This document shows, one piece after another, positions 17,154-32,283 of a DNA stretch of 36,174 nt (within the stretch, counting starts at the first letter, position 1; the number at the start of each line of letters is the position of its first letter). The stretch covers positions 1-36,174 of the forward strand of contig NZ_JANIBJ010000040.1 in NCBI RefSeq assembly GCF_024505185.1, given 5' to 3'. This DNA comes from Methylomonas subterranea (lineage in GTDB: Bacteria > Pseudomonadota > Gammaproteobacteria > Methylococcales > Methylomonadaceae). The notes beneath the pieces are model-generated. The model did no database searches and was not told the DNA's origin. It worked only from the letters and a program-made list of their open reading frames with translations. A program made the translations under genes and the position numbers.

Positions 17154-18511
17154 GCAAACAAGCACCTTACATTTTGGTCGTCGACGATGAACAGGATATT
17201 CGTCAACTGGTTTCGGAAATTCTGGAAGACGAGGGCTATGAAGTAGCGATGGCCGAAAACGCCGCCGAAGCGAAAGCACGTAAAAACCAGCGCCCACCCA
17301 ATCTGATTTTATTGGATATCTGGATGCCGGACAGCGACGGCATCACCTTGTTGCGGGAATGGGTGGCCGAGGACGATCATTTATGCCCGGTGATCATGAT
17401 GTCCGGCCATGGCTCGGTGGAATCCGCCGTGGAAGCCACCCGGCTGGGTGCTTACGACTTCCTGGAAAAACCCCTGTCGCTGGCCAAATTGTTATTGATC
17501 GTCGAGCGCGCTCTGGAAACCAGCTCGCTGCAACGCGAAAATGCCGGACTGAAGCAACAATTGATGATAGGCGTGGACCCGGTCGGCAAAAGCGCGGTAG
17601 TGGAACGTACCAAGGACAAGGTCAAACGGCTGGCCCAACACGACACCCGGGTGCTGTTCGTCGGCGAAGCCGGTGTCGGCAAGGAAATGTTCGCCCGCTA
17701 TCTGCATAACAACAGTCCGCGCCGCGACGGCGCCTTTATCGACGTTTCGGTCGGCAGCATCTCGCCCGAAAACGCCGCCGTGGAATTTTTCGGCCGCGAG
17801 GATAATGGCCGGGTTTACCGCGGCCTGCTGGAACAGGCGCATCGCGGCACGCTGTTCCTGGGCGAAATTGGCGGCATGGACCCGGAAACCCAGGCCCGCC
17901 TGCTCAGCGCGCTGGAATCCAGTTCGTTTCTCAGAGTTGGCGGCAGTCAGGCGGTCCGCGTCGACGTGCGCGTGGTCGCCTCGACCCGCATGGCGCTGGA
18001 CGAGGAAGTTAACCATGGCCGCTTCCGTCAGGATTTATACTATTTATTGAATGAAGTCACCCTGGATGTACACCCCTTGCGCGACCACAGCGAGGACGTC
18101 CCCAGCCTGCTGAATTTTTATGTCGATCATTTCGTGGTACATGAAAAACTGCCGTTCCGGCGTTTCTCGATGGCGGCGCAAAACTACCTGCGCAACTACA
18201 GCTGGCCCGGCAACGTGCGCGAACTGCGCAATCTGGTACAGCGCCTGATGATATTGGGCGCCGGCGACGACATAGAGCTGGATGAAGTCAAAACCGCGCT
18301 GGGCTCCATCGCCGAACAACCCAAACTGGGCAATAATGTGCCGGAGTTTTTCAACCTGCCGCTGAAGGAAGCCCGCGATCATTTCGAAAAATCCTACCTG
18401 GAATACCATTTCGAAAAGAACGGCGGCAGCGTCGCCAAACTGGCCTCGGCCATCGGCATGGAGCGCACGCATTTGTACCGGAAACTGCATTCATTGAAAA
18501 TTAAACTCTAA
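17150..18511 (+). CDS. ntrX: NtrX-type response regulator lacking sigma54-activation motifs
   Basis: A 453-residue NtrC-family regulator. The receiver (1-120) has Asp56 in LILLDIWMPD. The AAA+ domain has a Walker A-like GEAGVGKE at 172-179. The C-terminal Fis-type helix-turn-helix (about 410-453) ends KLASAIGMERTHLYRKL. Two expected features are absent. The GAFTGA loop that contacts sigma54 is missing: the stretch FFGREDNGRVYRGLLEQA is shortened there. The Walker B aspartate is replaced, reading LFLGEIGGMD instead of LFLDEIGDM. It therefore probably works as a phosphorylation-controlled DNA-binding regulator rather than a sigma54 activator. It is coupled to ntrY. Confidence 0.88.
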   Translation: MSKQAPYILVVDDEQDIRQLVSEILEDEGYEVAMAENAAEAKARKNQRPPNLILLDIWMPDSDGITLLREWVAEDDHLCPVIMMSGHGSVESAVEATRLGAYDFLEKPLSLAKLLLIVERALETSSLQRENAGLKQQLMIGVDPVGKSAVVERTKDKVKRLAQHDTRVLFVGEAGVGKEMFARYLHNNSPRRDGAFIDVSVGSISPENAAVEFFGREDNGRVYRGLLEQAHRGTLFLGEIGGMDPETQARLLSALESSSFLRVGGSQAVRVDVRVVASTRMALDEEVNHGRFRQDLYYLLNEVTLDVHPLRDHSEDVPSLLNFYVDHFVVHEKLPFRRFSMAAQNYLRNYSWPGNVRELRNLVQRLMILGAGDDIELDEVKTALGSIAEQPKLGNNVPEFFNLPLKEARDHFEKSYLEYHFEKNGGSVAKLASAIGMERTHLYRKLHSLKIKL

Positions 18512-18517
18512 AACGAC

Positions 18518-18546
18518 TTGAAGTTGAGGCCCTCTTTGAGTAGAAT
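18518..18546 (+). promoter_or_regulatory. Sigma70 promoter of rplM-rpsI
   Basis: TTGAAG (18518-18523), a 17-bp spacer, and TAGAAT (18541-18546) form a good sigma70 promoter in the 78-bp gap between ntrX and rplM. It would give a leader of about 37 nt. I see no clear ribosomal-protein leader fold. Confidence 0.68.
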
Positions 18547-18589
18547 CCCCGTTCTTTATACATAGCCTCAACAGAATCAAGAAGCAAAG

Positions 18590-19018
18590 ATGAAAACATT
18601 TAGTGCAAAGCCCGCAGAAGTTAAGCGCGATTGGTACGTGATTGATGCAGAAGGAAAGACGCTAGGTCGCCTTGCTACTGAAATTGCACGACGTCTTCGC
18701 GGCAAACATAAACCCGAATTCACTCCGCATGTCGACACCGGCGATTACATCATCGTCATCAACGCCGAAAAAGTAGGCGTCACCGGCAACAAGGAAACAG
18801 ACAAAATGTACTACCGTCATACCGGTTATGTCGGCAACATGAAGTCAACCTCCTTGGGCAAGCTGAGACAAACCTTCCCTGATCGCATCATCAGCACCGC
18901 CGTACAAGGCATGCTGCCTAAAAATCCCTTAGGCCGCGCCATGTTCAAAAAATTAAAAATTTACGCGGGTTCTGAGCACAATCATCAGTCTCAACAACCC
19001 AAAGTACTAGACTTTTAA
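18590..19018 (+). CDS. rplM: 50S ribosomal protein L13
   Basis: An early-assembling large-subunit protein of 142 residues, the usual L13 length. It has [20 protein letters not shown] at the N-terminus, [17 protein letters not shown], the [11 protein letters not shown] strand and the conserved [19 protein letters not shown]. It forms the standard rplM-rpsI operon with the next gene (15-base gap). Confidence 0.98.
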
Positions 19019-19033
19019 GCAGGTAGATAGTTT

Positions 19034-19423
19034 ATGGCAGCTCAATACTACGGAACCGGTCGTCGCAAAAGCTCAGTGGCTCGCGTTTACGCCACCATCG
19101 GCTCGGGAAAATTCACTATCAATAACCGCCCTGTAAACGAATATTTCGGTCGTAAAACCGACGAAATGATCGCCAGACAACCGTTGGAATTGTTGGCGAA
19201 AACCGGCGATTTCGACATCAACATCATCGTCAGCGGCGGCGGCCCATCCGGCCAAGCCGGCGCCATTCGCCACGGCCTGACCCGCGCGTTAATGGAATTC
19301 GACGAATCCCTGAGATCGCCCTTGCGCAAAGCCGGTTACGTAACCCGCGACGCTCGTGAAGTCGAACGTAAGAAAGTCGGCCTGCACAAAGCCAGAAAAC
19401 GTCCTCAATACTCAAAACGTTAA
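19034..19423 (+). CDS. rpsI: 30S ribosomal protein S9
   Basis: A small-subunit protein of 129 residues, whose C-terminal tail reaches the P-site tRNA. It shows [15 protein letters not shown] at the start and the universal [15 protein letters not shown]-terminus. Its last two codons, stop and terminator are duplicated 5.5 kb downstream, marking the 3' end of this gene as the insertion point of the dnd unit. The coding sequence itself is intact. Confidence 0.98.
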
Positions 19424-19468
19424 GCGTTTACGGGTTGGACAAAAAAGCCGCTGCAAAGCGGCTTTTTT
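19415..19468. repeat. Left 54-bp direct repeat (att-like, rpsI 3' end)
   Basis: This stretch contains the rpsI codons for Lys-Arg, the stop codon and the terminator hairpin. It is identical, base for base, to 24912-24965. The 5.5 kb between holds the dnd genes and nothing of the core genome. This is the arrangement left by site-specific integration into a gene 3' end, with the gene restored. Confidence 0.85.
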
Positions 19469-19470
19469 TT
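19441..19470. terminator. Bidirectional terminator after rpsI
   Basis: The stem aaaaaagccgc / gcggctttttt (loop tgcaaa region) is flanked by A6 and T8 runs, so it can work on both strands. It ends the rplM-rpsI transcript. Before insertion of the dnd unit it would have faced the convergent phosphopantetheinyl transferase gene. Confidence 0.88.
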
Positions 19471-19770
19471 GTCCCGTGCTTTTCAGGCGTAATATAAAAA
19501 CAATTCCCTCCTCCGCATAAAAAACACATACCAGCGGATGCGAGGAATACTCGCGAATGAGCAAACAACACCGGAATATGGGCTTGAACGGAAGGCAGGA
19601 GTTTTGACGACTTTCAATTCAGCACGCCATTGAGACAGGAAAACATGAGAGCTGCATCTACCAGGAATAATCACTGTTTCGCATCATGGATAAGCGCTCA
19701 CCCCCATCCAATAGCATTATCAAGGAATAATCGAGTTTCGTTTATTCACACCATAAAACGTCGTTCTGAT
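19471..19770. other. AT-rich island leader without genes
   Basis: No convincing gene is present in these 300 bases. Base composition drops sharply in GC compared with the left-hand chromosome. Two similar short segments, aggaataatc-(nn)-tgtttcg at 19663 and aggaataatc-ga-gtttcg at 19723, lie 60 bases apart as imperfect direct repeats. They could be protein-binding sites of the element or chance. Confidence 0.4.
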
Positions 19771-19804
19771 TATAATGCCGATTAATTTTTCGCTCATAGA
19801 GCGA
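19771..19804 (+). promoter_or_regulatory. Putative -10 box and leader hairpin of the dnd operon
   Basis: A perfect TATAAT (19771-19776) lies 62 bases before dndC. No good -35 is seen at 17 bp; TTCACA at 19745 would give 20 bp. Between it and the gene is a perfect 6-bp hairpin tcgctc-ata-gagcga (19790-19804), which could be an operator or an RNA control element. No dndB repressor gene is present to act on it. Confidence 0.4.
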
Positions 19805-19838
19805 GAATAAAATCTTTTTCCCTAAAAATATACAAATA

Positions 19839-21134
19839 ATGACCCAAAATATTCTGGACAGCCTCCATAGACTTTACTCTTTGGATGCTAGGCCATGGAT
19901 CGTCGGTTACAGCGGCGGCAAAGACAGTTCGATGATAGCCTCCTTGGTGTTCGAAGTAGTAATGGAGACCCCCCCGGAACAGCGCACCAAAGAGATTTGT
20001 GTTGTCTGCACCGACACCCGTGTGGAAATTCCTGCCGTTGTAGCTAGGGTTCAAAGCGAGTTGGACCTCATGCAAACCTGCTCAGATAAGCATGGGTTAA
20101 ACATTTCTGCACATTTATTAAAACCAACGGCACAGCAGTCATTTTGGGTAAATATTATTGGCCGCGGTTATCCGCCACCCAACCGAACCTTTCGCTGGTG
20201 TACTCAGCGGTTAAAGATTGACCCAGTCAGCGAGTTCATTCGCGGGAAGCTCGGACACTGGGGAGAAGCAATTATTGTGTTGGGAGCTCGCCGAAGCGAG
20301 AGCGGCTCGCGCGCGCAAACATTGGATGCTCGAGCCAAGAGCGAATTCGGCTTGCGACGCCATGACGACTTACCGCGTTGCTGGATTTCGACACCGATTG
20401 AACATATCTCAACTTTTGAAGTTTGGGATTATTTGATGGAACGTCCTTGTCCATGGAATGGGGACAATCAGACTCTTTTTCAGCTTTACAAGGATGCGTC
20501 GGGCGGTGAATGCCCGCTGGTGGTTGACCAATCAACACCCTCATGTGGCAATAGCAGATTTGGCTGCTGGACTTGCACGGTAGTAGAGAAAGATAAAGCC
20601 AGCGAGGGTTTGCTTGCCACCGGAGATCAGCGCATGGAATCACTGCTCCGCTTTCGCGAAACACTATTGCATTTTCGTGATCCAGAGAACGGCTACCGCG
20701 ATATGGTGCGAAAAAACGGTCAAGAAGGACCAGGGCCGTTGAAAATTGAGGCTAGAAAAGAGCTTTTAACTAAGCTGTTAGCTTTACAAGACGAATCGGG
20801 TCTCCCTGTCATCAGTGAAGAAGAGCTGCATTGGATTCAAACCTTTTGGAATAGCGCTCGCAATCCAGATGACGGTACGGGGGTCGTCAATATTATCTTC
20901 CAGCAAAAGGGTGACGCCATGCCAGACAGAAAGGATGAAGCTGAGTTGCGAGAAATCGAGGAGCGCGTAGCAACGGAAAAGGAAATATCGATAGAAACAT
21001 TGCGACGGCTTGTTTCGAAGGTCGAAGAATATGGTGAAAGCCACCGTGCTGTAGGCCTGCCTGACGAACTGTTGCAGATATTGCAAGATGATTTGAGAGA
21101 GCGCCAATTAGAAAAGGAACAAACGAATGCCTGA
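19839..21134 (+). CDS. dndC: DNA phosphorothioation sulfurtransferase DndC
   Basis: An adenine-nucleotide alpha-hydrolase of the PAPS-reductase family (431 residues) that activates the DNA backbone for replacement of a non-bridging oxygen by sulfur. The P-loop is SGGKDS (25-30). Conserved DndC segments are PPPNRTFRWCTQRLK (Cys121), LGARRSES and CGNSRFGCWTC (Cys236, 243, 246), which together supply the cysteines expected for the Fe-S cluster. The frame is open only about 13 codons upstream, with no better start; the ribosome site is weak. It overlaps dndD by 8 bases. No dndA (cysteine desulfurase) or dndB is nearby, so sulfur would come from a chromosomal IscS-type enzyme. Codon use is more AT-rich than the core genes to the left. 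Confidence 0.9.
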   Translation: MTQNILDSLHRLYSLDARPWIVGYSGGKDSSMIASLVFEVVMETPPEQRTKEICVVCTDTRVEIPAVVARVQSELDLMQTCSDKHGLNISAHLLKPTAQQSFWVNIIGRGYPPPNRTFRWCTQRLKIDPVSEFIRGKLGHWGEAIIVLGARRSESGSRAQTLDARAKSEFGLRRHDDLPRCWISTPIEHISTFEVWDYLMERPCPWNGDNQTLFQLYKDASGGECPLVVDQSTPSCGNSRFGCWTCTVVEKDKASEGLLATGDQRMESLLRFRETLLHFRDPENGYRDMVRKNGQEGPGPLKIEARKELLTKLLALQDESGLPVISEEELHWIQTFWNSARNPDDGTGVVNIIFQQKGDAMPDRKDEAELREIEERVATEKEISIETLRRLVSKVEEYGESHRAVGLPDELLQILQDDLRERQLEKEQTNA

Positions 21135-23190
21135 GGTATATATTGATTCGCTGTCCATCAAAAATTTTGGGCCATATTACGGCGAGCATACCTTCGAGCT
21201 TGGAACTGAGGGATACCGTCGAGCCACGCTTATCGGTGGCAAGAATGGTGCGGGTAAGACCCATCTGCTTCGAGCTCTATATCTAGCCACTGTCGGTGAA
21301 AGTGGTGCTATTGATCTTAAAAAAGTTGAATCGGGTTCAGATGCGACCCGATTTGATTTGGCCGAATCATTGAATCGTCGAGCAAAATCTGAGGGTGAAG
21401 ACAGTTGCTCCATGACGTTACAATTAAGCCAGCGCGATGAAACCGGTAGTATTGGTCGAACATTGACATTGGTTCGTCAGGTGAGGTGGCGCCCCAATTC
21501 ACCTCCAGTTTTTAGCTCTAAAGCCAATCTATCTGGTGACTCTCAATGGATAGAGGACGAAGACAAGGTTCAAAAGTTGCGCGATGCTTTTTTGCCACGC
21601 CATTTGACACGCTTTTTCTTTTTCGACGCGGAGCGTAGCCAAAGCATCCAGCTAAATGAGCGGGAAATAACTGAAGGCATCAGCCGAGTGCTCGGTCTTT
21701 ACTCCTATTCGGAATTAGAGGAAGACTTGCGCCAACTGACGGCTAATAAAATCCCCAAAATATACGGTAGTGGCTCCGAGGCAGAACGTCGCTTAAACGA
21801 CATCACGGCTGAAATACTTCGCCATGAGTCCAATCTCAAAACGTTTTCGATTGATGAGTCGGATCAAAAACAGGAACTTCGGGACAACATATCGGAACTT
21901 GATGAAGTAGAAGACCAGCTCAAATCTATCGGGGCCGTAGATCCTGAACAACTGACTAAAGCGACCAAACAGCGCGAGGAAATAAAATCAACCAAGGACA
22001 AGCTGGAAGCCAATCTTGGCACGGCCTGGGAATCGACATTACCCATTTCTCTGTTAGGTGGATTCCGCGCAGAGCTTTATGACTATTTACTGAAAGAGGA
22101 ACGCCGAAGAGATTTCGAAAATCGAAAAGCTAGCGTAGAGCCAAAAATCCCTCAAGTAAAGCAAGCTGTGTTTGAAAACGTTCCGCCTAACTTTGTGCTT
22201 GATGATTCCCTCCGAAGCTTTTATGAAGCCCAGATAGATGTCGCACTTCAAAGTTTGTTCAATCCCCCGCCTGAGGGCATGTCAGAGAAAATCTTTGTTG
22301 TTCCTGAACGTAACGAGCTTAGCATTCAAATCAGATCAAAACTACGAACTCAGGCTACAGCGATACAAGGTCTTGCTAATTTGTGTGCTGAATTAGAGCG
22401 CAAGACATCTGAACTCAGGGAGCTTGATCAAACGTTAAAAGTACTGAACTCGGACAGCACAGCTATCGCTCTCGGCAATGAGTTACGTGAGCGTAGAGGC
22501 TCTCTTCTGAAACACAAGGAGCAAATCGACGAAAAGATTTCCAATATTCAGGCCGAACGCACTCTAATCAATAATAAACTCCATGAGCTTCGTAAGGAGG
22601 AAACCAATCTGTCGGAGCAAGTGCAAAAAGTACAGAAAGGACGGGATCTCAATAGCTTGGCGCATCGCTATCGGGACGCTGTAAGCCAAATCAAGTCCTG
22701 CGCAGCCGTATCACTTCGAGAGAAGATCGCTGACATCGTTGGAGGATTGTGGCTGGATATAACCGACCGCGGCTTAGAGTACGTCGGCATGGAGTTTGAC
22801 CAACACTGGAATTGCTTCCTGAAAAAGTCTGATGGCACTCGCGTATCCTGGGAAAGCGCCAATACCTCGGCTGGTCAGCGCCAAGTTCGAATTTTAGCAT
22901 TCACCGAAGCGTTGCGTCGTTTGGGCCGCTTCGTAACACCCCTTGTAGTTGATACGCCATTGGGGCGTCTGGATAAAGAAGTCCGTGAAAACGTATTGGA
23001 ACGACTGTATCTTTCGGGCCATCAAAGCATCATTCTGACTACTAACGCAGAAATCGATCCCAAAAGCGATCTTTTTGACCGAATCGCACCCCATTTATCC
23101 AGGGTCTACACTTTGAATCCGCAAGGGGATCCAGAATCGAACTCCTACCAAGTTAGAGTCAGCAATGACTACTTCAAACGAGTGCTTTAG
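21127..23190 (+). CDS. dndD: DNA phosphorothioation ATPase DndD
   Basis: An SMC/RecN-like ATPase of 687 residues, thought to open or nick-scan DNA for phosphorothioate insertion. Walker A is GGKNGAGKT (37-45). The DndD hallmark FFFDAERSQSIQL follows. The middle (about 220-520) is rich in charged coiled-coil sequence. The C-terminal head has the signature SAGQRQVRILAF and Walker B LVVDTPLGRLD, followed by HQSIILTTNAEID. It overlaps dndC by 8 bases and is 11 bases from the dndE fusion gene, so the three are one operon. Confidence 0.9.
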   Translation: MPEVYIDSLSIKNFGPYYGEHTFELGTEGYRRATLIGGKNGAGKTHLLRALYLATVGESGAIDLKKVESGSDATRFDLAESLNRRAKSEGEDSCSMTLQLSQRDETGSIGRTLTLVRQVRWRPNSPPVFSSKANLSGDSQWIEDEDKVQKLRDAFLPRHLTRFFFFDAERSQSIQLNEREITEGISRVLGLYSYSELEEDLRQLTANKIPKIYGSGSEAERRLNDITAEILRHESNLKTFSIDESDQKQELRDNISELDEVEDQLKSIGAVDPEQLTKATKQREEIKSTKDKLEANLGTAWESTLPISLLGGFRAELYDYLLKEERRRDFENRKASVEPKIPQVKQAVFENVPPNFVLDDSLRSFYEAQIDVALQSLFNPPPEGMSEKIFVVPERNELSIQIRSKLRTQATAIQGLANLCAELERKTSELRELDQTLKVLNSDSTAIALGNELRERRGSLLKHKEQIDEKISNIQAERTLINNKLHELRKEETNLSEQVQKVQKGRDLNSLAHRYRDAVSQIKSCAAVSLREKIADIVGGLWLDITDRGLEYVGMEFDQHWNCFLKKSDGTRVSWESANTSAGQRQVRILAFTEALRRLGRFVTPLVVDTPLGRLDKEVRENVLERLYLSGHQSIILTTNAEIDPKSDLFDRIAPHLSRVYTLNPQGDPESNSYQVRVSNDYFKRVL

Positions 23191-23201
23191 AGATTATTGC
23201 C

Positions 23202-24695
23202 ATGAGAATCAAAACTAGTGCCGCTGTAGGCGATTTCTTGGAATCGGTTTGGAGTCGCGTTCATGCTCCAAATAAAGCAGTTTTGGGTAGAGCTGGAATG
23301 TTTCTGGCTTTGGGAGAAGGATTACCGGGTGGATTTAAGGTGGCAGATTCCCAGGGTATTGAGTTAGCTGAAGAAACTATCGTTGGAGACGACTTGGCTC
23401 CAGTTGTGAGAGCAGCTCTAAATTATCGCAACGGTTCGACCCTAGATGAAGCCGCCTACAAGCAAGCGTTTCGCCTATATTTCGAGTATGGCTGCCATCG
23501 TCTCATGCAACTGTGGGATGAATACAATGGCGACCAAATTATGTTCACATCTGCGCTTATCAAAACGGCAAAAACCGGTCCTGAACTTCTTCCATCTATC
23601 GAAGGTTCTGCAATAGCCCCTATGGCAATTGTGGACCATCCGGTCCGAATCAAGTTACTTGATGACGTAGAGCCTTGGACAATCAACGCGGCGGGCGGGA
23701 ACTGCCTTACCGTAATTTCCGGCAAACCCGGTTCAGGCAAAAGCCAACTTGCCTTGGACCTGTTGGCCCAAATATCACGCCAAGGTGTCAAATTTCTATT
23801 TTTCGACTTGAAAGGTGAATTGGAAGACGACCCTTCAAACCCTCAACAAACTCAAACCCGAAATAATTTTCTTCAAATTACGGGGGCAAATTATATTCGT
23901 CTCATTTCAGAGGGTTTGCCCATCAATCCTTTGTTTAGAGGGAAGTCTGAGGCGGAAAATGCGCAGATTGCGTCAGAGGTTGCTTCTCTGGTGGGCTCAT
24001 TCGCACCGCAACTTGGTGCAAATCAGGAGAGAGCCATTCGAGATGCGTTCGAGAGTCTGGAACGTCCCGATTTTCATGGCCTTGCTGCAGAATTGGAGCA
24101 ACGAGGAGAAGAAGGGGTTGCGCTCTCAATATTGGAGAAAATTTCCAAATTCAACCTATTTTCAAACGCGGACAGAGCGCAACCGATTGAGCGCTGGTTA
24201 AGTTTGTCCCAAGTCATAGACTTCAAGCCTTTAGGTAACGACAACGACACTAAAGTTTTAGCAGTTGCCTTTATTCTTAACTGCATCATGCGCCAGTTAA
24301 ACCGCGCACTCGCGGTAAAAGACGCCATCCAACCCTTACAGATGGTGCTGTTTGTTGACGAAGCACATCTACTACTACCCAAGGAAGGCAAATCAGGACT
24401 TTTAGGCTCCTTAGCACGTCAAGGCCGCTCGTGGGGTTTTCCTGTTTGGTTGGCCTCGCAAGATGCAGATGCTTTTTTGACGAAAGGGGCAAACGCAACG
24501 GACTTTGCTGAGTTGGCTGAATGCGGCATACATTTTTCACCGCAAACACTCTCGGAGAATGAGCAAAAGAAAGTATTCGGACTAACTTTGAATAAGCCGT
24601 TACAAAAAGGCGAAGCTGTTCTTCGTTTGTCTAGCAAGCTTTACACAGGAGCTGCACGACAAATTTGGAGGGACAATGGCGAACTACATGAATAA
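23202..24695 (+). CDS. dndE: DndE domain fused to HerA/FtsK-like ATPase
   Basis: A 497-residue two-part protein. Residues 1-118 resemble DndE (DUF1832), the small nicked-DNA-binding subunit of Dnd systems, usually about 120 residues and free-standing; here SVWSRVHAPNKAVLGRAGMF and FRLYFEYGCHRLMQLWDEY are seen. Residues about 140-497 form a P-loop ATPase. It has Walker A GKPGSGKS (174-181), FFDLKGE (200-206) as in HerA/FtsK/VirB4 translocases, Walker B LFVDEAHLLLP (383-393), and RQGRSWGFPVWLASQ after it. The fusion suggests DNA translocation tied to the modification complex, or a replacement for the missing DndFGH restriction proteins; both are inference. The DndE call rests on sequence resemblance and operon position. 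Confidence 0.8.
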   Translation: MRIKTSAAVGDFLESVWSRVHAPNKAVLGRAGMFLALGEGLPGGFKVADSQGIELAEETIVGDDLAPVVRAALNYRNGSTLDEAAYKQAFRLYFEYGCHRLMQLWDEYNGDQIMFTSALIKTAKTGPELLPSIEGSAIAPMAIVDHPVRIKLLDDVEPWTINAAGGNCLTVISGKPGSGKSQLALDLLAQISRQGVKFLFFDLKGELEDDPSNPQQTQTRNNFLQITGANYIRLISEGLPINPLFRGKSEAENAQIASEVASLVGSFAPQLGANQERAIRDAFESLERPDFHGLAAELEQRGEEGVALSILEKISKFNLFSNADRAQPIERWLSLSQVIDFKPLGNDNDTKVLAVAFILNCIMRQLNRALAVKDAIQPLQMVLFVDEAHLLLPKEGKSGLLGSLARQGRSWGFPVWLASQDADAFLTKGANATDFAELAECGIHFSPQTLSENEQKKVFGLTLNKPLQKGEAVLRLSSKLYTGAARQIWRDNGELHE

Positions 24696-24911
24696 ATTGA
24701 TTTACCTGATTAGTAAGCTGCTTCAGCTAATTCAAAGGGGCACATTCACTAAATCGTCATTTCGGGAGTGCCGAAACAGGCTGCATGGATGGCTCGAAGC
24801 TTGCCATCCACGGTACTGGAGACCGGTATCCCCCCCGTTCTCCCGCCCCGGGCAGGCTCAGCGTGCATGACGGATCTTTTTGGTTTTAGCTGGAGCCGCT
24901 TTCAAATCAGG
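24696..24911. other. Tail of the dnd unit, no gene
   Basis: About 216 bases between the dndE-fusion stop and the right repeat hold no convincing gene. A GC-rich patch (about 24820-24860, ccccccccgttctcccgccc-like) contrasts with the AT-rich genes before it and may be a remnant from another source. The last bases, agg followed by the repeat, differ from the rpsI sequence at the left copy. Confidence 0.4.
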
Positions 24912-24965
24912 AAACGTTAAGCGTTTACGGGTTGGACAAAAAAGCCGCTGCAAAGCGGCTTTTTT
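24912..24965. repeat. Right 54-bp direct repeat (att-like) with terminator
   Basis: This is an exact copy of 19415-19468, including Lys-Arg-stop codons of rpsI and the hairpin terminator (24938-24965). One base before it the two copies diverge, and after it the T run is shorter. The terminator copy now serves both the dnd operon from the left and the convergent phosphopantetheinyl transferase gene from the right. Confidence 0.85.
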
Positions 24966-24984
24966 ATTGGCGCCCCTCATAGCC

Positions 24985-25683
24985 CTAAACCTGCAGATCC
25001 CGCCGGATAAAATCGACCTTCGGCACCACCAAGGCCGCAGCAAACCCTTCGCCGCAAACCAATTCCGCGACAGTCCAGTCATCGGCACGACCGTATTCCC
25101 CTGGAATCGCCAGCAGCCGGCCGCGCCCCGTCATATCCACTTCGCAACGTTCCAGCCCCGCCGACAAACCGCGACCGACCGCCTTTACAAAGGCTTCCTT
25201 GATCGTCCACAGCCGAAAAAATGCCGCCGTCCGTTCCCGTGGGGATAATTCCAACCAAACGGCTAACTCCTTTTCGGAAAAACAGCGTCTGGCTATTTCC
25301 GGCATTCCCTTGCGGGGTTTCACGGCCTCGATATCGATACCGACATGCCGCAGATCCGACACCGCCAATAACAAGGCATCCCGCGAATGCGACAAATTAA
25401 AATATATGCCCTGCCCCGGCAGATAGGGCTTGCCGTGTTCACCCAAGGCGAACCGCACGGCTTCCGGCTTGCATGCCAAATACCCGGACAACACCCGACG
25501 CACAACAGCTCGAGCCGATATGTAACGCATGCGCACCTCGTCATTGATCAGCTTTTCCGCCTTACCGCGTTCTTCATCGCTCAGCAAGCCCCAAAGTCCA
25601 GCCGAATCATCCCCCACGGCGACTCGTCCGCGCCAAATATCGACAAAATGCCCCGTCACCGACCAACCGCCTGCAGCAAGCAT
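24985..25683 (-). CDS. 4'-phosphopantetheinyl transferase, Sfp/AcpT family
   Basis: A 232-residue enzyme transferring the phosphopantetheine arm of CoA to carrier-protein serines. The two Mg/CoA motifs are present: HVGIDIEAVKP and FFRLWTIKEAFVKAVGRGL. The Sfp-like length suggests activity on secondary-metabolite or fatty-acid carrier proteins. The ATG at 25683 lies inside jetD (28-base overlap). A GTG at 25659 would instead give a neat GTGA overlap with the jetD stop; family starts do not settle it. Either way it is translationally linked to the Wadjet genes, an unexpected partner. Before the dnd insertion it would have been the convergent neighbour of rpsI. Confidence 0.9.
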   Translation of the reverse strand: MLAAGGWSVTGHFVDIWRGRVAVGDDSAGLWGLLSDEERGKAEKLINDEVRMRYISARAVVRRVLSGYLACKPEAVRFALGEHGKPYLPGQGIYFNLSHSRDALLLAVSDLRHVGIDIEAVKPRKGMPEIARRCFSEKELAVWLELSPRERTAAFFRLWTIKEAFVKAVGRGLSAGLERCEVDMTGRGRLLAIPGEYGRADDWTVAELVCGEGFAAALVVPKVDFIRRDLQV

Positions 25684-26831
25684 GCAAAACCGACATATTC
25701 CTGCTCCAAGCGCACATGGCTTCCAAACCGGTTGTCGCGCAAGCCATCGTAAAGTGCCGCTTCTTCGGCGCGCAGATGGCTCAGCTCAGCTTTACCGGGA
25801 GCGGCTTCCGTTACCCAATGGGCGCGGTGACTCAGCAAAGTCGCTTCGTCCATCAACAAGGAACGGGTTTGCGGAAAAAGCTTGCGGAATTGATCGAGAA
25901 TGGCAAAACCATGCGTATCGATGTCGCCCCAGTAATCAATTTCCTTGCCTCTGAGCCATTCGGCCTTCGCCAAGGCTTCAAAACCGTAACCGCGGCCGAA
26001 AATCACCATGGCGTCATCGAGTGACGGAAAGGCCAGACCGTTGATATCGTTTTCGGTGACGAATACCCGCCTCACCGGCAAATCCAATCCCGCAAACTCC
26101 TCGGCGGTCACCGTCAGATCGCTTAATCCGCCAATTCTCAAATGGCTATCCAGCAGGCGGAAACGAATCAATTGCGGCTTGGCCAAAAACCCGTAACGCA
26201 ACTCAAATCCGCCGATAGCGCTATGTTTGCGCTCTATCGCCGCCTCGGGCAGCAAAAAGTCCAGCCATTCGCCCAACAATTTCTTATGCTTCTCGATGAA
26301 CTTGGTGTCGACGCCCGGCAAACTGATCTGGCGCAAATAAATGCCGGGCCGGGGATGTTCGCTTATCCAGCCGGCCACTGCCAGCAACCTGGACCATTGG
26401 TCGGCATATTCCAGCGCTCGCAGGGGATATTTACCCAGCCATGCGCGCAAGCCGTCGAAACCGTCCGGCACTGTTTTCGACAGTTCGATGAACCGCGCCA
26501 GTTCCCCAGACTTCTTCAGCAGAGCTGCCGCATCGGCCGGCGTCGCGAACAGCACCGCCGCCGGCAACTGGTTACGCCCCAACTGCCTGTGCCTGATGTC
26601 GCGCCATTCGATTTGGAAAAAGCGACTGTCGGCGTTTTGCCAGCTCTCCACCCAGGCGCGGGCGGCGGCAAAGTCGGCGCCGAGTTGGGCGGTCGTCGGT
26701 TGCTTCAAGTTCAAGCGTAGCGGAAACAAGCCGGAATCGGCCAACGTTTCCGTCAACAATTGGCCACGTTGCCAGCGTTTTTCCAGTTCGGCCCGGATAT
26801 CGGCCGGCGTGGTCCAGATCGGACGACTCAT
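25656..26831 (-). CDS. jetD: Wadjet nuclease subunit JetD (DUF3322/DUF2220)
   Basis: A 391-residue protein with an N-terminal DUF3322 part (WTTPADIRAELEKRWQRGQLL, about 1-190) and a C-terminal Toprim-like DUF2220 part. The latter has VTENDINGLAFPS, IFGRGYGFEAL and YWGDIDTHGFAILDQF, containing the acidic residues expected for a topoisomerase VI A-like metal-dependent nuclease. In Wadjet, JetD cleaves plasmid DNA captured by the JetABC SMC complex. It overlaps jetC by an ATGA. The catalytic residues look intact. Confidence 0.92.
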   Translation of the reverse strand: MSRPIWTTPADIRAELEKRWQRGQLLTETLADSGLFPLRLNLKQPTTAQLGADFAAARAWVESWQNADSRFFQIEWRDIRHRQLGRNQLPAAVLFATPADAAALLKKSGELARFIELSKTVPDGFDGLRAWLGKYPLRALEYADQWSRLLAVAGWISEHPRPGIYLRQISLPGVDTKFIEKHKKLLGEWLDFLLPEAAIERKHSAIGGFELRYGFLAKPQLIRFRLLDSHLRIGGLSDLTVTAEEFAGLDLPVRRVFVTENDINGLAFPSLDDAMVIFGRGYGFEALAKAEWLRGKEIDYWGDIDTHGFAILDQFRKLFPQTRSLLMDEATLLSHRAHWVTEAAPGKAELSHLRAEEAALYDGLRDNRFGSHVRLEQEYVGFACLLQAVGR

Positions 26832-29800
26832 GCATGGGCCGCGCGTTCAGCGCGGTATTGTTCTATGCTCAGATTGCGCAATTTAGAATCCCGGCCTTCC
26901 TCGTTATGCACGAAGCCGACTGCCGCCACGTAAGGCTCGATGATATGAATCTTCTGCAAGGGCGTGACGATCAGCAATTGCAAATTCAACTGCGCGAACA
27001 AGCGCAGACCGTATTGAGCCGATTCGTCGGAGCCGCGGCCGAAAGCCTCGTCGATCACCACGAAGCGGAACGACCGCGAGCGCACCGCGCCCCATTCCAG
27101 GCCGAACTGATAGGCTAGGCTGGCCGCCAGGATGGTGTACGCCAATTTCTCCTTTTGACCGCCGGACTTGCCGCCGGAATCGGAATAATGCTCGTGTTCG
27201 CTGTCGTCCTCGCGCCAACGTTCGCTGGCGCCGAAGTTGAACCAGTTGCGCACGTCGCTGACCTTGGCGGTCCAGCGCCGATCCAGCTCGGTCTGGCCCT
27301 CGCGACCGCGAAAGCGCTCGATGATAGCCTTGACCTGCAAAAACTTGGCTTCCGAATATTGTGCGTCCTCGGAACCGGTCAGCGCACCCTCGGTACAGGC
27401 CCTAAGCTCTGCTTGAAAATCGCGCACATCGGCATCCAGAGCCGGCCGGGCCTCCAGCACGATGTAACGGCCGGTGTTGTAATCGATCTTGGTTAGCGAT
27501 TCGTTGATCAGCGCGATGCGTTCCTTGATGGTTTCGCGCTCGCGAGCCAGTTGCGACTGGAAGTTGGCGACCTCGCGGATGGTGTTTTCGTTGAGCAATT
27601 CCTTGAAACGGGCCTCGAAACGCGGCAAGTCGTCGGCTTGCAGTTTGTCGAGCATCTCGCGGTATTCGCCGGCGGCGGCAATCGCCACATCGACTTCCTG
27701 CGTGTCGAGTGGAAACGCCGCGCAATAGCCGCGCATCGCGTCGATGATCTTGTCGCGTAAGCCGTTGAGCTTGCGGGATTCGGCGTCTATGCGTTCTTGC
27801 AGCCATTTACGGTAGTCCTGTTCGCGGTTGTCGCAGGACTCCACCGACAAGTGATGCTCGCCCAAGGCTTCGTGACGCATTGCGTCCAGTTTGGGGTAAC
27901 GCTCGGCATGGGCCGGGCCTGCTTCGTCGAGCAAGGCCTGGGTTTGTTGAAGCAATGCTTCGGCAGCCTGTTTGCGTTGTTCGGTGCCGCCCAGTTCCTT
28001 GGTTTTATCGCCGAGCAGGCGTTCGGTTTCTTTAAGCGCCGCTTGCAGGGTTTCCAGGCGTTCGGTCAAAGCCTTCAATAAATCCGACTCGGCTTCCAAC
28101 TGCCGTTTTTCCTCTTCCAGCCGGGCGATGTCGCCGGCCAGCGGCCGCCAATCCAATTCGCGGAAGTCGCGGTATTCGTCCAGTTTGGACAGGGTATCCA
28201 GTTGCGCCTTGACGACTTTTTGCGCTTTGTCCAATTCCGCCAGCTTACCGGCCAATTCGGCCAAATGGCCCTCCAAAGCCTTCGCTTTATGCTCCAGCGC
28301 GGCAATCTTGGCGGCATTCGACCAGCCCAGCACGTAGCGGCTACGGTCGTCCAAACGATGGCGGTCGTCTTTTTCGTGGCGTTCTCCCGGTGCCTTGATT
28401 TGGCCGGCGCGGGTGATAGCTTTTTGTTCGCGGCGGAATTGTTCCGGCGTTGCGCAACAGGCCACGTCGAAACGGTGGGCAATTTCCCGTTCCAGCCAGT
28501 CGTAAAATGCCGAATCAGGCTTGACCGCCAATTTATGAACCAAGGAATCGCGGTGCAGGCTGGGCAATTCGGCGCGCTGGCCATGTCGTACCCGAAAATA
28601 CACCAATCGTCCTTTCAGATGAGTCTTATCCACCCACTCGGCCACCGCCGCATAATGAGCATCCGGCACCAGCAGCGACAGGCCGAAGCTGCGCAACAAA
28701 CGCTCGGCCGCGCCTTCCCAATCCCGTTCATCATCGCGTATTTGAATCAACTCGCCGGCAAACGGCATGTCGTCTTCAGCCAAGCCCAGGGCCAGACACA
28801 GCAGTTGGCGCAGTTTGATTTGAGCATCGTCGATATTGCTGCGCCGCGCCTTCAGGCTGTCGATTTCGGCTTGCAGGGCTTGATGCTCCTGACGACTCTG
28901 GGCAAAGTCGACACCCGTTTGGTTGGCCTGGTTCTGCAAATCCGCCTCGCTGTCCGCCGCCGCTTGCAGCAAATCGGCGAACTGTTTTTGCTGGACCAGA
29001 AAGCCGTCGCCATCCTCCGGCGGAACCAATCCCACTGCTCGCACCAGTTGTTCGTGCCGTTCGGCCTTGTTTTTGCGGCGGCCCAGTTCATCCCGATGGC
29101 GTTGAATTTCCTCGCCGATACGGGCAATGCGGTCGCCGCCGTTCTCGCCGATGTTGCGCTGCAATTCGCGCTCCTCGCTCAGTTGGGTTTGCTTGCGTTC
29201 CGCCAGCCTTTCCACTTGCGCGCCTTGCCGTGCAAGCTCTTCGTCCAGACTAGCCAGGCGCTTGTCCAGCAAGCCGCGTTTCAAGCCGGCAAAGTAAGCC
29301 CGTAATGCTTCGCGACAAGCGCGCAGTTCCTCGGTTTGTTCGGTCAATTGCGTGTGGCGGTCGCTATCGGTAACCAGCGGCATCAACAATCCAACCTGGC
29401 GTTTGGCCTTCAACACCGCTTCGTGGGCGCGGTTCAGGTCGTCGAAATGGGCGATCAATGCGGCGATGCGCGGGGCCACGTCGGACGGCTCCAGCATGTG
29501 GCTGCGGACGAAATCGGTCAGATTGCCGACCGACTTCATCGATACGGTTTGATGAAACAATTCCAGCGCCTGTTCGTTGTCTATGCCAAAACGGCGACGG
29601 AACCAAGCACCGTAAGGCGGAAAGCTGTCGTGCAACTCGGCACCCAGGCCGCGCAGCTTCTTGCGCAGTTGGCCGATGTCGCTGCCGAAGCCGGCGAAGT
29701 CCTTGGCAATAGCCAGGTCGCGTTCGGCGCCGACGAACAACCGCGCCGGCTGGCCCTGGCGTTCCGTCATCCAGAATACTTGCGCCAAAGTCACGGTCTG

Positions 29801-30202
29801 GTCGTAGCCGGCGTTGTGGAACACGCCCAAAATCACCGAATAATTATTATGGTCGCGCAAGGCCACCGGCTTAGTGCTGCCACTCACTTCATTGCGTTCG
29901 GATTTGTAATGGCCCAGCACGTAGGAGCGCAGGCTGCGCTCCTTGCTGTCGGCACCGGCCGCCTTGTTGTAAGCGATGCGATGGGCCGGCACCAGCAAGG
30001 TGGTGACCGCGTCGACCAGCGTCGATTTGCCGGAACCGATGTCGCCGGTCAGCAAGGCGTTCTGACCGTCGAGATGCAAAGTCCAGACCCGGGCATCGAA
30101 GGTGCCCCAGTTGAACACCTCCAAACGCTGCAGCCGAAAGCCGGACAAGGTATCGTCGTCGACGAAGTCCAGGGAGAGTTGCAAGTCGCTGTTGTTATTC
30201 AT
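26828..30202 (-). CDS. jetC: Wadjet SMC-like ATPase JetC
   Basis: A 1124-residue MukB/SMC-like ATPase that loop-extrudes DNA in the Wadjet anti-plasmid complex. Walker A is GDIGSGKST (53-61). Long coiled coils occupy roughly 250-900 with a hinge-like middle. The C-terminal head has the signature SGGKSGGQKEKLAYTILA and Walker B FRFVVIDEAFGRGSDES. The frame is open to 30277, but the ATG at 30200-30202 (MNNNSDLQLSLDF) is chosen: the extra 25 residues look unlike the family and come from a palindromic repeat region. It is followed without a gap by jetD. Confidence 0.93.
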   Translation of the reverse strand: MNNNSDLQLSLDFVDDDTLSGFRLQRLEVFNWGTFDARVWTLHLDGQNALLTGDIGSGKSTLVDAVTTLLVPAHRIAYNKAAGADSKERSLRSYVLGHYKSERNEVSGSTKPVALRDHNNYSVILGVFHNAGYDQTVTLAQVFWMTERQGQPARLFVGAERDLAIAKDFAGFGSDIGQLRKKLRGLGAELHDSFPPYGAWFRRRFGIDNEQALELFHQTVSMKSVGNLTDFVRSHMLEPSDVAPRIAALIAHFDDLNRAHEAVLKAKRQVGLLMPLVTDSDRHTQLTEQTEELRACREALRAYFAGLKRGLLDKRLASLDEELARQGAQVERLAERKQTQLSEERELQRNIGENGGDRIARIGEEIQRHRDELGRRKNKAERHEQLVRAVGLVPPEDGDGFLVQQKQFADLLQAAADSEADLQNQANQTGVDFAQSRQEHQALQAEIDSLKARRSNIDDAQIKLRQLLCLALGLAEDDMPFAGELIQIRDDERDWEGAAERLLRSFGLSLLVPDAHYAAVAEWVDKTHLKGRLVYFRVRHGQRAELPSLHRDSLVHKLAVKPDSAFYDWLEREIAHRFDVACCATPEQFRREQKAITRAGQIKAPGERHEKDDRHRLDDRSRYVLGWSNAAKIAALEHKAKALEGHLAELAGKLAELDKAQKVVKAQLDTLSKLDEYRDFRELDWRPLAGDIARLEEEKRQLEAESDLLKALTERLETLQAALKETERLLGDKTKELGGTEQRKQAAEALLQQTQALLDEAGPAHAERYPKLDAMRHEALGEHHLSVESCDNREQDYRKWLQERIDAESRKLNGLRDKIIDAMRGYCAAFPLDTQEVDVAIAAAGEYREMLDKLQADDLPRFEARFKELLNENTIREVANFQSQLARERETIKERIALINESLTKIDYNTGRYIVLEARPALDADVRDFQAELRACTEGALTGSEDAQYSEAKFLQVKAIIERFRGREGQTELDRRWTAKVSDVRNWFNFGASERWREDDSEHEHYSDSGGKSGGQKEKLAYTILAASLAYQFGLEWGAVRSRSFRFVVIDEAFGRGSDESAQYGLRLFAQLNLQLLIVTPLQKIHIIEPYVAAVGFVHNEEGRDSKLRNLSIEQYRAERAAHA

Positions 30203-30250
30203 CGCTAGCCAATGGGCGTTTGAGGCGCCGGGGCTGGCCCGGGTAAGATA

Positions 30251-30321
30251 TAGGTTGGATAAGCGAAGCGCATCCACCAGCGGCCTTAACTTTGGTGGAT
30301 GCGCTTCTCCTATCCACCCTA
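30251..30321. repeat. Long imperfect palindromic repeat between jetB and jetC
   Basis: The arm taggttggataagcgaagcg-catccacca (30251-30279) is matched in reverse complement by tggtggatgcgcttctcc-tatccaccct (30293-30321) around a 13-base loop. Intergenic repeats with the core ggataagcgaagcgcatccacc are scattered in many gammaproteobacterial genomes (from general knowledge). It occupies the 156-bp gap between two genes that normally touch, so it probably inserted there and can form a hairpin in the mRNA. Confidence 0.75.
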
Positions 30322-30358
30322 CCGTTGAGATTTTGCGAAATCCTCACGCTAAAACCCA

Positions 30359-31021
30359 TCATTCACCGCCCTCCACGCCGCCCGCCAGTTGCGCCTGATA
30401 CTCGGCCAGCCGGGCATCGAATTCCGACAACCATTGCGCATCGACAAAGGCTTTCAATATGCGCCTAACTTCGTAATTGGCCGACTGACCGGGAGCAGCC
30501 TTGAATTTGCGCAAAAATCCCAGTTCAACAACCCGATTGATGTGGTTTTCTATTTGATCGATCAGCCGGGCCTCGTTGCTGCCTTGCGGTAAAAACACCC
30601 GGATCAGTTCGGCGATGTCCTCGCGCGACAAAACCAGGCGCGTATCGCCGCCGCCGGCATCGAACTCGGCCAGTTTCTTGCGCAACAAGGCCAAAAGCAG
30701 GCTGACCGGAAACGACAGCGGCCGGCGAACGATCAGCCGGGGTAATTGCCGCGTGGCATCCTCGTCAGTCGCCGCCTGACGCGAACGCAAAAACGCATAA
30801 CTCTCGGCCTCGTCCAGCACCAACTCCAGACCCAACACCGCGACGTAATCCCGCACCCTGGCTTGCAGATTCAGTAGCGTCCCCCACAAGGCGGCGTCGT
30901 TTTCCTGGTAGAGCACGCCTTTGAGCAAGGGGATCACGACGCCCGACAAGTCGTATTGGGGTGCGGCTTCGATCTCGGTTTCTGTCATCGCGTTTGGAAT
31001 CGCTGGGATAAAATCGGGCAT
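30359..31021 (-). CDS. jetB: Wadjet accessory subunit JetB (DUF4194)
   Basis: A 220-residue DUF4194 protein, the MukE-like winged-helix partner of the SMC complex. Typical segments are GVVIPLLKGVLYQENDAALW, DYVAVLGLELVLDEAESYAFLRS and PLSFPVSLLLALLRKKLAEFD. The start may be the ATG at 31021 or Met12 at 30988 (MTETEIEAAP). In type I Wadjet loci jetA (DUF3375 kleisin) lies directly upstream; here only 58 bases separate this gene from an IS66 remnant, with no jetA sequence recognisable. A TATAAA box about 33-38 bases upstream of the ATG could drive it. Confidence 0.9.
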   Translation of the reverse strand: MPDFIPAIPNAMTETEIEAAPQYDLSGVVIPLLKGVLYQENDAALWGTLLNLQARVRDYVAVLGLELVLDEAESYAFLRSRQAATDEDATRQLPRLIVRRPLSFPVSLLLALLRKKLAEFDAGGGDTRLVLSREDIAELIRVFLPQGSNEARLIDQIENHINRVVELGFLRKFKAAPGQSANYEVRRILKAFVDAQWLSEFDARLAEYQAQLAGGVEGGE

Positions 31022-31702: not shown

Positions 31703-31981
31703 ATGACCATGGCCAACGTTGAAAAATTATCGATTGCATTGACACCCGAGATGGCGGCGGTAGTTCGCCAATGTGTTGAAAGTGGTGAATACGCCAGTTC
31801 CAGTGAACTGATACGTGAAGCATTGCGGGATTGGAAAACCAAACGGTCATTGCAGCAAAATGAACTTCAGGAACTGCGGCACCTTTGGCAGGATGGTATT
31901 GATAGTGGGCCAGCAAAGTTTGCGGATATGAATGCCATTAAGATGGAAGCCAGAAAACGACTTGCATCATCAGCTAAATAG
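31703..31981 (+). CDS. parD: Type II antitoxin, ParD/CopG ribbon-helix-helix family
   Basis: A 92-residue protein with an N-terminal ribbon-helix-helix DNA-binding fold (EKLSIALTPEMAAVVRQCVE, SGEYASSSELIREALRDW), the classic ParD pattern. A C-terminal tail would wrap the toxin. The start is ATG 31703 with AGAGG five bases before it; Met3 is an alternative. It lies 14 bases upstream of the toxin gene. The pair may stabilise this region. Confidence 0.9.
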   Translation: MTMANVEKLSIALTPEMAAVVRQCVESGEYASSSELIREALRDWKTKRSLQQNELQELRHLWQDGIDSGPAKFADMNAIKMEARKRLASSAK

Positions 31982-31995
31982 CTCGTCCACTATCC

Positions 31996-32283
31996 ATGGG
32001 TATTGTTCATCGTACCAGTCAATCAGAAGAAGATTTGATTGAAATATGGCTTTACATAGCACAGGACAATCCAACAGCGGCTGATAGGGTGTTGGATGAT
32101 ATAGAGCAACGTTTCGTCATGCTGGCAGACAATCCCCAGATGGGTCGCTACCGTCCTGATATTGCACCCGAGCTGCGGTATTTTATATCAGGCAAATACC
32201 TTATTTTGTATAGAACCCTGAACGATGGCGTGCAGATTGTTCGCGTCATTCATGGTGCCAGGGATTTACCCAACGAGTTCTAA
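31996..32283 (+). CDS. parE: Type II toxin, ParE/RelE superfamily
   Basis: A 95-residue toxin-fold protein. It has the ParE pattern RTSQSEEDLIEIWLYIAQDN, a middle NPQMGRYRPDIAPELRYF, and the end YLILYRTLNDGVQIVRVIHGARDLP. ParE toxins inhibit DNA gyrase, while RelE relatives cut mRNA; the RVIHGARDL ending fits ParE. The gene is intact and cotranscribed with its antitoxin. Confidence 0.9.
   Translation: MGIVHRTSQSEEDLIEIWLYIAQDNPTAADRVLDDIEQRFVMLADNPQMGRYRPDIAPELRYFISGKYLILYRTLNDGVQIVRVIHGARDLPNEF

Follow-up and report, generated by a model that had tools for sequence, protein, structure and literature searches.

A three-gene Dnd cassette between two copies of the rpsI 3' end in Methylomonas subterranea: a possible integrase-type insertion lacking a recombinase

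The DNA analyzed here, referred to as the window, is the entire 36,174-nucleotide contig NZ_JANIBJ010000040.1 (C40) of Methylomonas subterranea, whose genome assembly comprises 104 contigs. The 3' end of rpsI, the gene for 30S ribosomal protein S9, occurs twice in the window, and a small set of Dnd genes lies between the two copies. The copies form a direct repeat that is identical at 54 of 54 positions and extends no further at either end. Each contains the final two rpsI codons, the stop codon, a spacer and a hairpin with a T run; only nine coding bases, stop included, are duplicated. Directly repeated exact 20-mers number 35 in the window, which is the number contained in the 54-bp repeat alone, and comparison of the rpsI end with its own downstream DNA by BLAST yields E = 1e-26. 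A query with the rpsI end matches two places across the 104 contigs at E ≤ 0.001, and the terminator core, with up to two mismatches, is likewise found at two places, while the reversed control gives none. The identical copies described in the initial annotation are thus exact, and the common dispersed repeat that it had named as a possible refutation is rejected by the two genomic places. The hairpin of the left copy, folded in context, reaches -28 kcal/mol (z -4.0), clearly better than shuffled sequences; that of the right copy reaches -24.1 kcal/mol (z -1.9), with 11 of 200 shuffles equally good.

One unit length is 5497 bp, as initially annotated (Table 1). The same annotation assigned only dndC, dndD and a dndE-ATPase gene to the unit; all three are there, together with a 207-bp miniature inverted-repeat transposable element (MITE) that it had not listed. 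In the fused dndE-ATPase product, residues 2–101 at the N-terminus match Pfam DndE at 7e-5 (23.6 bits against a cut-off of 25), and residues 167–460 match the C-terminal part of the PADLOC DndH profile at 2e-17. The PADLOC match of the dndD product is full-length. The genes dndC, dndD and dndE occur together, with DndD and DndE scoring under the curated cut-offs of TIGR03185 and Pfam DndE. The dnd genes have a G+C content of 47–50% against 54% for the window. The unit contains no dndA, dndB, dndFGH or other nuclease gene; this holds for the unit only, no search for a sulphur donor or restriction partner having been made elsewhere in the genome. According to PMC10853773, DndE and a HerA/FtsK ATPase in a single polypeptide beside a DndD-type ATPase have already been published. 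The Dnd modules with DndE and a clade-3 HerA/FtsK ATPase described there resemble the window in placing the fusion next to a DndD-related ABC ATPase; the window unit differs from them by holding just C, D and E-ATPase.

Table 1. Features at the rpsI locus of the window
Feature	Position	Strand	Basis
rpsI (30S ribosomal protein S9), target gene	19034..19423	+	open reading frame (ORF) list; 88–93% protein identity to relatives' rpsI
Left repeat copy (last two rpsI codons, stop, terminator)	19415..19468	+	54/54 identity with 24912–24965; hairpin
Left inner region, 41% G+C, three short direct repeats	19469..19838	+	sequence scan
dndC	19839..21134	+	NCBIfam TIGR03183 above cut-off; PADLOC DndC 5e-129
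dndD-like ABC ATPase gene	21127..23190	+	PADLOC PbeC 6e-61, DndD 4e-60; TIGR03185 5e-52, below its cut-off
DndE fused to HerA/FtsK-type ATPase	23202..24695	+	Pfam DndE, PADLOC DndH
207-bp MITE, 26-nt imperfect inverted ends	24705..24911	.	inverted ends, dispersed matches, no 8-bp target duplication
Right repeat copy (rpsI end and terminator)	24912..24965	+	identity to left copy; hairpin; spacing to the phosphopantetheinyl transferase gene
Phosphopantetheinyl transferase (PPTase) gene, right neighbour	24985..25683	-	Pfam ACPS 6e-20

Of the 36 further genus genomes, 35 were used to compare the DNA behind rpsI, in stretches of about 1–18 kb, several of them only about 1–6 kb; one genome (G030) was omitted, since its contig stops about 200 bp beyond rpsI. 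In nine of the 35 relatives, the end of the PPTase gene lies 46–66 nt past the rpsI stop codon, an arrangement that represents the empty site. In the window, the stop codon of the right copy is 65 nt from the end of the PPTase gene, which is the spacing of the empty sites. If one unit length is deleted, rpsI, its terminator and the PPTase end stand as in the empty relatives. This comparison of sequences supports an insertion at the 3' end of rpsI; an rpsI–terminator–PPTase empty site is what the initial annotation had named as support for insertion. The PPTase gene lies at 248 nt in one further relative and 1.4–6.3 kb away, behind other genes, in 12; in the remaining 13, the genes listed for the first 9 kb or less after rpsI do not include it. 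The region varies widely among the relatives, carrying cargo of differing kinds and no repeats. A second copy of a genome's own rpsI end was found in none of the 35 stretches, in which the sole matches at E ≤ 0.01 were two of 14 nt. The general hotspot that the annotation proposed to look for, with other cargo between the same repeats, is not borne out: none of the 35 relatives has cargo between two of its own rpsI ends. In one genome (G035), an Eco29kI-type restriction enzyme and a C5 methylase are encoded directly behind rpsI without repeats (L046, 836–2664). In another (G001, L053), immediately behind rpsI, the similarity to the rpsI terminator ends after the spacer, and a terminator-like sequence follows about 1.9 kb further on; the stretch may be a group II intron of a kind favouring terminators.

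The cassette itself is rare. Among 201 sampled genomes of the family, the dndE-ATPase gene was found at E ≤ 1e-20 only in the genome of the window, with a distant relative (27%) in one other member of the family (G046). A search at the level of the class gave four of 369 genomes at E ≤ 1e-10, comprising the window, one homolog at 57% and two at 27–29%. Homologs in five plasmid and two phage records are all below 30%, and the cassette was found in none of the viral contigs. Among the matches listed for the 201 family genomes, the DNA between the left repeat and dndC has only weak ones, the best foreign match covering 42 bases at E 1e-4. This region contains the direct repeats AGGAATAMTCR at 19543, 19663 and 19723, a pattern chosen after seeing them, which are possibly, as weak candidates, arm sites of a recombinase.

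The right boundary of the unit coincides with the MITE. The MITE starts nine bases past the stop codon of the dndE-ATPase gene and ends immediately before the first base of the right repeat copy. Similar dispersed DNA matches in 20 of the 37 genus genomes, many of the matches being partial. Flanks were collected from 39 loci, of which three had no end pair, three were duplicates and 12 had poor ends, leaving 21 to be scored. The flanking octamers agree at six or more of eight positions in 18 of the 21 copies; the other three are L127 (3/8), L175 (1/8) and L116, which was mispaired by the script and agrees at 8/8 when the BLAST ends are used. Not all copies are independent, as L116 and L117 seem to derive from a single ancestral insertion. 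The family shows inverted ends, dispersed copies and a fixed 8-bp target duplication, and the window copy itself lacks the duplication: its left flank, TTGATTTA, and its right flank, AAACGTTA, agree at 3/8. AAACGTTA comprises the first eight bases of the right repeat copy and is the octamer at the rpsI end. Since the right copy begins at the edge of a MITE without target duplication, a break probably occurred at a MITE edge. The right boundary was thus probably rearranged, either by a deletion from the MITE edge into the right copy or by the joining of two alleles at the MITE. The right copy is bounded on its left by the MITE edge, and in either case the 54 bp would not be the length of an attachment site. 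Two other roles of the MITE are rejected. Its later insertion with its own target duplication and nothing else does not fit flanks that match at only 3/8, and movement of the unit as a transposon by the MITE ends leaves a further 46 identical bases unexplained. A MITE can imitate or truncate the footprint of an attachment site, which calls for caution in calling islands from direct repeats alone.

Homologous cassettes were sought by scanning a collection with one genome per species for peptide patterns, which revealed relatives of the dndE-ATPase gene at five loci. The nearest (L074) is in UBA2262, a metagenome-assembled genome of Desulfobulbaceae, and is the closest homologous cassette found, with protein identities to the window of 83, 84 and 88% for dndC, dndD and dndE-ATPase, respectively. 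Its DNA matches window positions 19846–24679 at 73% and nothing else within 18501–26900; the sole other protein match is an 81-residue piece at 38%. Within the phylum of this genome, the cassette was found in one of 395 genomes, its own. The window and L074 units hold just three modification-type Dnd genes, so both would need a host sulphur donor, and any restriction partner would lie elsewhere. At L076, another of the homologous loci, genes for a cysteine-desulfurase-type class-V aminotransferase and a HATPase_c_3 protein lie nearby; a similar aminotransferase ORF, judged by eye, occurs at L075 and L077–L079. The loci L075–L079 were rejected as further repeat-framed cases, since no repeat spans the cassette in the DNA examined; at L076 and L077 repeats occur on just one side, and the sequence of L075 begins within dndD.

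The cassette at L074 lies directly behind mntP, in a context unrelated to that of the window, and is framed by a repeat of the gene end as well. The final 86 bp of mntP before its stop codon recur at L074 12265–12350, identical at 81 of 86 positions with 70 in a row, and occur at no further place in that genome. Besides the dnd genes, the repeats enclose an ORF for a MazE-type antitoxin and an adjacent ORF that has no Pfam match; the DNA of this ORF pair recurs in two other genomes of the family. mntP is present in 22 of the 27 family genomes. In 18 of 22 other mntP loci, the sequence runs into the DNA that flanks the right copy of L074, 27–378 nt after the mntP stop. The right copy is therefore the displaced native end, and the left copy would have arrived with the insert. 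mntP ends in TTCTGA in the left copy of L074 and in the four loci with other DNA behind mntP, and in none of the 18 with the native flank; of these four, G592 and G604 resemble each other and cannot be counted as independent. This pattern suggests that the mntP 3' end is a hotspot with gene-end replacement. The loci in these relatives with other inserts and the TTCTGA end are L087, L100, L104 and L106.

The arrangement in the window is best explained, though with confidence just short of even, by an integrase-type insertion at the 3' end of a gene, the recombinase no longer being part of the unit. This explanation is preferred because the two cassettes sit at two different genes, both at the 3' end. 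A dndC–dndD–dndE/ATPase segment would have integrated at the rpsI 3' end, in the manner in which integrative elements use the 3' ends of genes. One gene end with its terminator would have stayed with rpsI, and the other copy would have been displaced to the far side, before the PPTase gene. A deletion that began at the MITE and reached the AAACGTTA octamer in the right copy may then have removed the right part of the element and set the left limit of that copy. An event at the MITE edge just behind dndE would be the likeliest reason here for the absence of a recombinase. The remainder would be a Dnd cassette for modification only, ending in a duplicated terminator. The footprint includes repeats of a 3' gene end and an empty site, and no tyrosine integrase gene was found inside. 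The initial annotation had likened this footprint to that left by integrases at a target gene, which holds for the repeat and the empty site; the right copy starts at the MITE edge.

Several observations weigh against this explanation. For a clean attachment site, the start of the right copy exactly at the edge of a MITE without an 8-bp target duplication is unexpected. The identity of 54/54, spacer included, implies that the donor of the incoming end belonged to the same or a very closely related lineage. None of the 35 relatives has a repeat at rpsI despite the widely varying downstream region. At mntP, the insert in G591 (about 3.8 kb) lacks a copy of the mntP end and holds another 92-bp repeat at 78%, and at the other three loci with non-native DNA the contig stops short of the native flank. 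A search for a dispersed element at the edge of the mntP repeat of L074 found none, yet a recombinase is missing there too, and hence loss at a MITE edge cannot explain both cases. A recombinase acting at rpsI was found neither with a tyrosine-recombinase profile nor in the phage, plasmid and viral scans, the serine type not having been tested.

The profile was built from 20 domains of the genus and covers tyrosine, not serine, recombinases; a recombinase of G031 that was already in the genus integrase list served as a positive control. It gave no match in the window, in agreement with the initial annotation that the unit encodes no recombinase, nor in L074–L079 (21 kb of L074) or 29 mntP-related loci. 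Pfam likewise identified no recombinase in the three large genes of the unit. In the 35 rpsI stretches, the profile matched only three adjacent genes of G031, 15–18 kb from rpsI, and inspection by eye of the genus integrases showed that, among the matches listed, only the one of G031 lies within 20 kb downstream of an rpsI. The three tyrosine recombinase genes (L061, 1–2544) include one with at least three equal-scoring copies in G031, and the trio looks like a multi-copy recombinase-trio element. A phage site at rpsI was considered and rejected, as 11 phage and 16 plasmid records gave weak matches only. Two of the phage records were examined; one is a contig with ordinary Acinetobacter chromosomal genes, and in the other, from a Vibrio phage, the match falls in coding sequence. 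Scanning viral contigs for the pattern yielded 21 matches; none of them has an rpsI frame, stop codons lying upstream in that frame. An autonomous partner with the same ends was seen neither in the genome itself, which has no third site, nor in the 35 relatives' stretches or the viral scan (0).

Among the alternatives, the main rival is a recombination between alleles without any integrase, which we regard as unlikely. An allele with rpsI, the terminator, the dnd genes and the MITE would have been joined to a second allele, whose rpsI 3' end either held a MITE (target AAACGTTA) or was intact, in the order rpsI–terminator–PPTase. After crossovers in rplM/rpsI and at the MITE, the left part would come from the first allele and the right part from the second, so that two rpsI ends remain. 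Such a history fits the right copy, which starts exactly where the MITE ends and opens with an AT-rich octamer like those used by the MITE family (AAAACGTT/AAAATGTT in L160), and the different octamer on the left implies that the MITE joins two contexts. The varied cargo without repeats behind rpsI in the relatives is also consistent with it. The flanks weakly resemble native rpsI flanks, the left one that of G027 (0.003 uncorrected, 34 tested) and the right one that of G002 (0.027 uncorrected), but these similarities fail correction for the number tested. A MITE at AAACGTTA of the sole rpsI would moreover extend S9 by 55 residues, which would probably be harmful, and the mntP repeat around the L074 cassette is left unexplained. 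That same repeat, imperfect over 86 bp within the same anatomy, argues against a misassembly in which two loci were joined through the 54-bp repeat; even though 54 bp may be short enough to mislead some assembly graphs and the assembly has 104 contigs, such an artefact is highly improbable.

A true non-autonomous unit, which never had a recombinase and moved in trans to the 3' ends of various genes through the recombinases of other elements or a host function, appears very unlikely. It would account for the shared anatomy of the two closest cassettes, no tyrosine recombinase having been found in or around either, and for the three short direct repeats of the left inner region. There is also a precedent in H47, a recombinase-less mobile island of E. 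coli with imperfect direct repeats, described in PMC5426353. These are two cases only, however, and L075–L079 have no cassette-spanning repeat in the DNA examined. The window and L074 share no ends outside the genes by blastn, the right end of the window unit is rearranged, neither an excised circle nor a helper was seen, and its own genome has no third copy of the site. A broader proposition is quite unlikely, namely that the cassette is one of a group of defence cargos without recombinases, which insert behind various housekeeping genes in distant bacteria and replace gene 3' ends with their own copy via borrowed recombinases or a host pathway. The vehicles by which defence genes move between bacteria are often lost; the two homologous cassettes, each framed by the duplicated 3' end of a different gene, offer a concrete pair for weighing trans-mobilization against integrase loss.

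The integrase-type insertion finds its nearest counterparts in Streptococcus, where, according to PMC4701971, rpsI 3' ends are targets of tyrosine integrases. The integrative and conjugative elements (ICEs) at rpsI in that report, and reportedly IMESag-rpsI, share the rpsI 3' end as target; in contrast to the Streptococcus elements, the window unit has no recognised integrase, relaxase or conjugation gene. H47 is alike as a small island between direct repeats without its own recombinase. It differs, according to PMC5426353, in that its mobility was shown by the polymerase chain reaction and its repeats are imperfect (148/144 bp). Another class of comparable elements is formed by the cis-mobilizable elements, in which cargo lies between attL-like and attR-like repeats without an integrase. 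The window unit is alike in its repeat-framed cargo without an integrase and differs in that no related ICE with the same ends was found. Titles and abstract openings from the literature on dnd islands, integrase-less islands, rpsI sites and MITEs include no paper on this locus, which is no proof of absence.

Beyond the PPTase gene, the minus strand at 25656–31021 carries Wadjet-type genes, namely jetD (PADLOC), a jetC-like gene for an SMC-type ATPase, and a DUF4194/MksE gene. The locus thus has two adjacent defence systems. Relatives of jetD and the jetC-like gene also follow the PPTase gene in G003, G025 and G026. Further beyond, a ParD/ParE-type toxin–antitoxin pair is encoded on the plus strand at 31703–32283.

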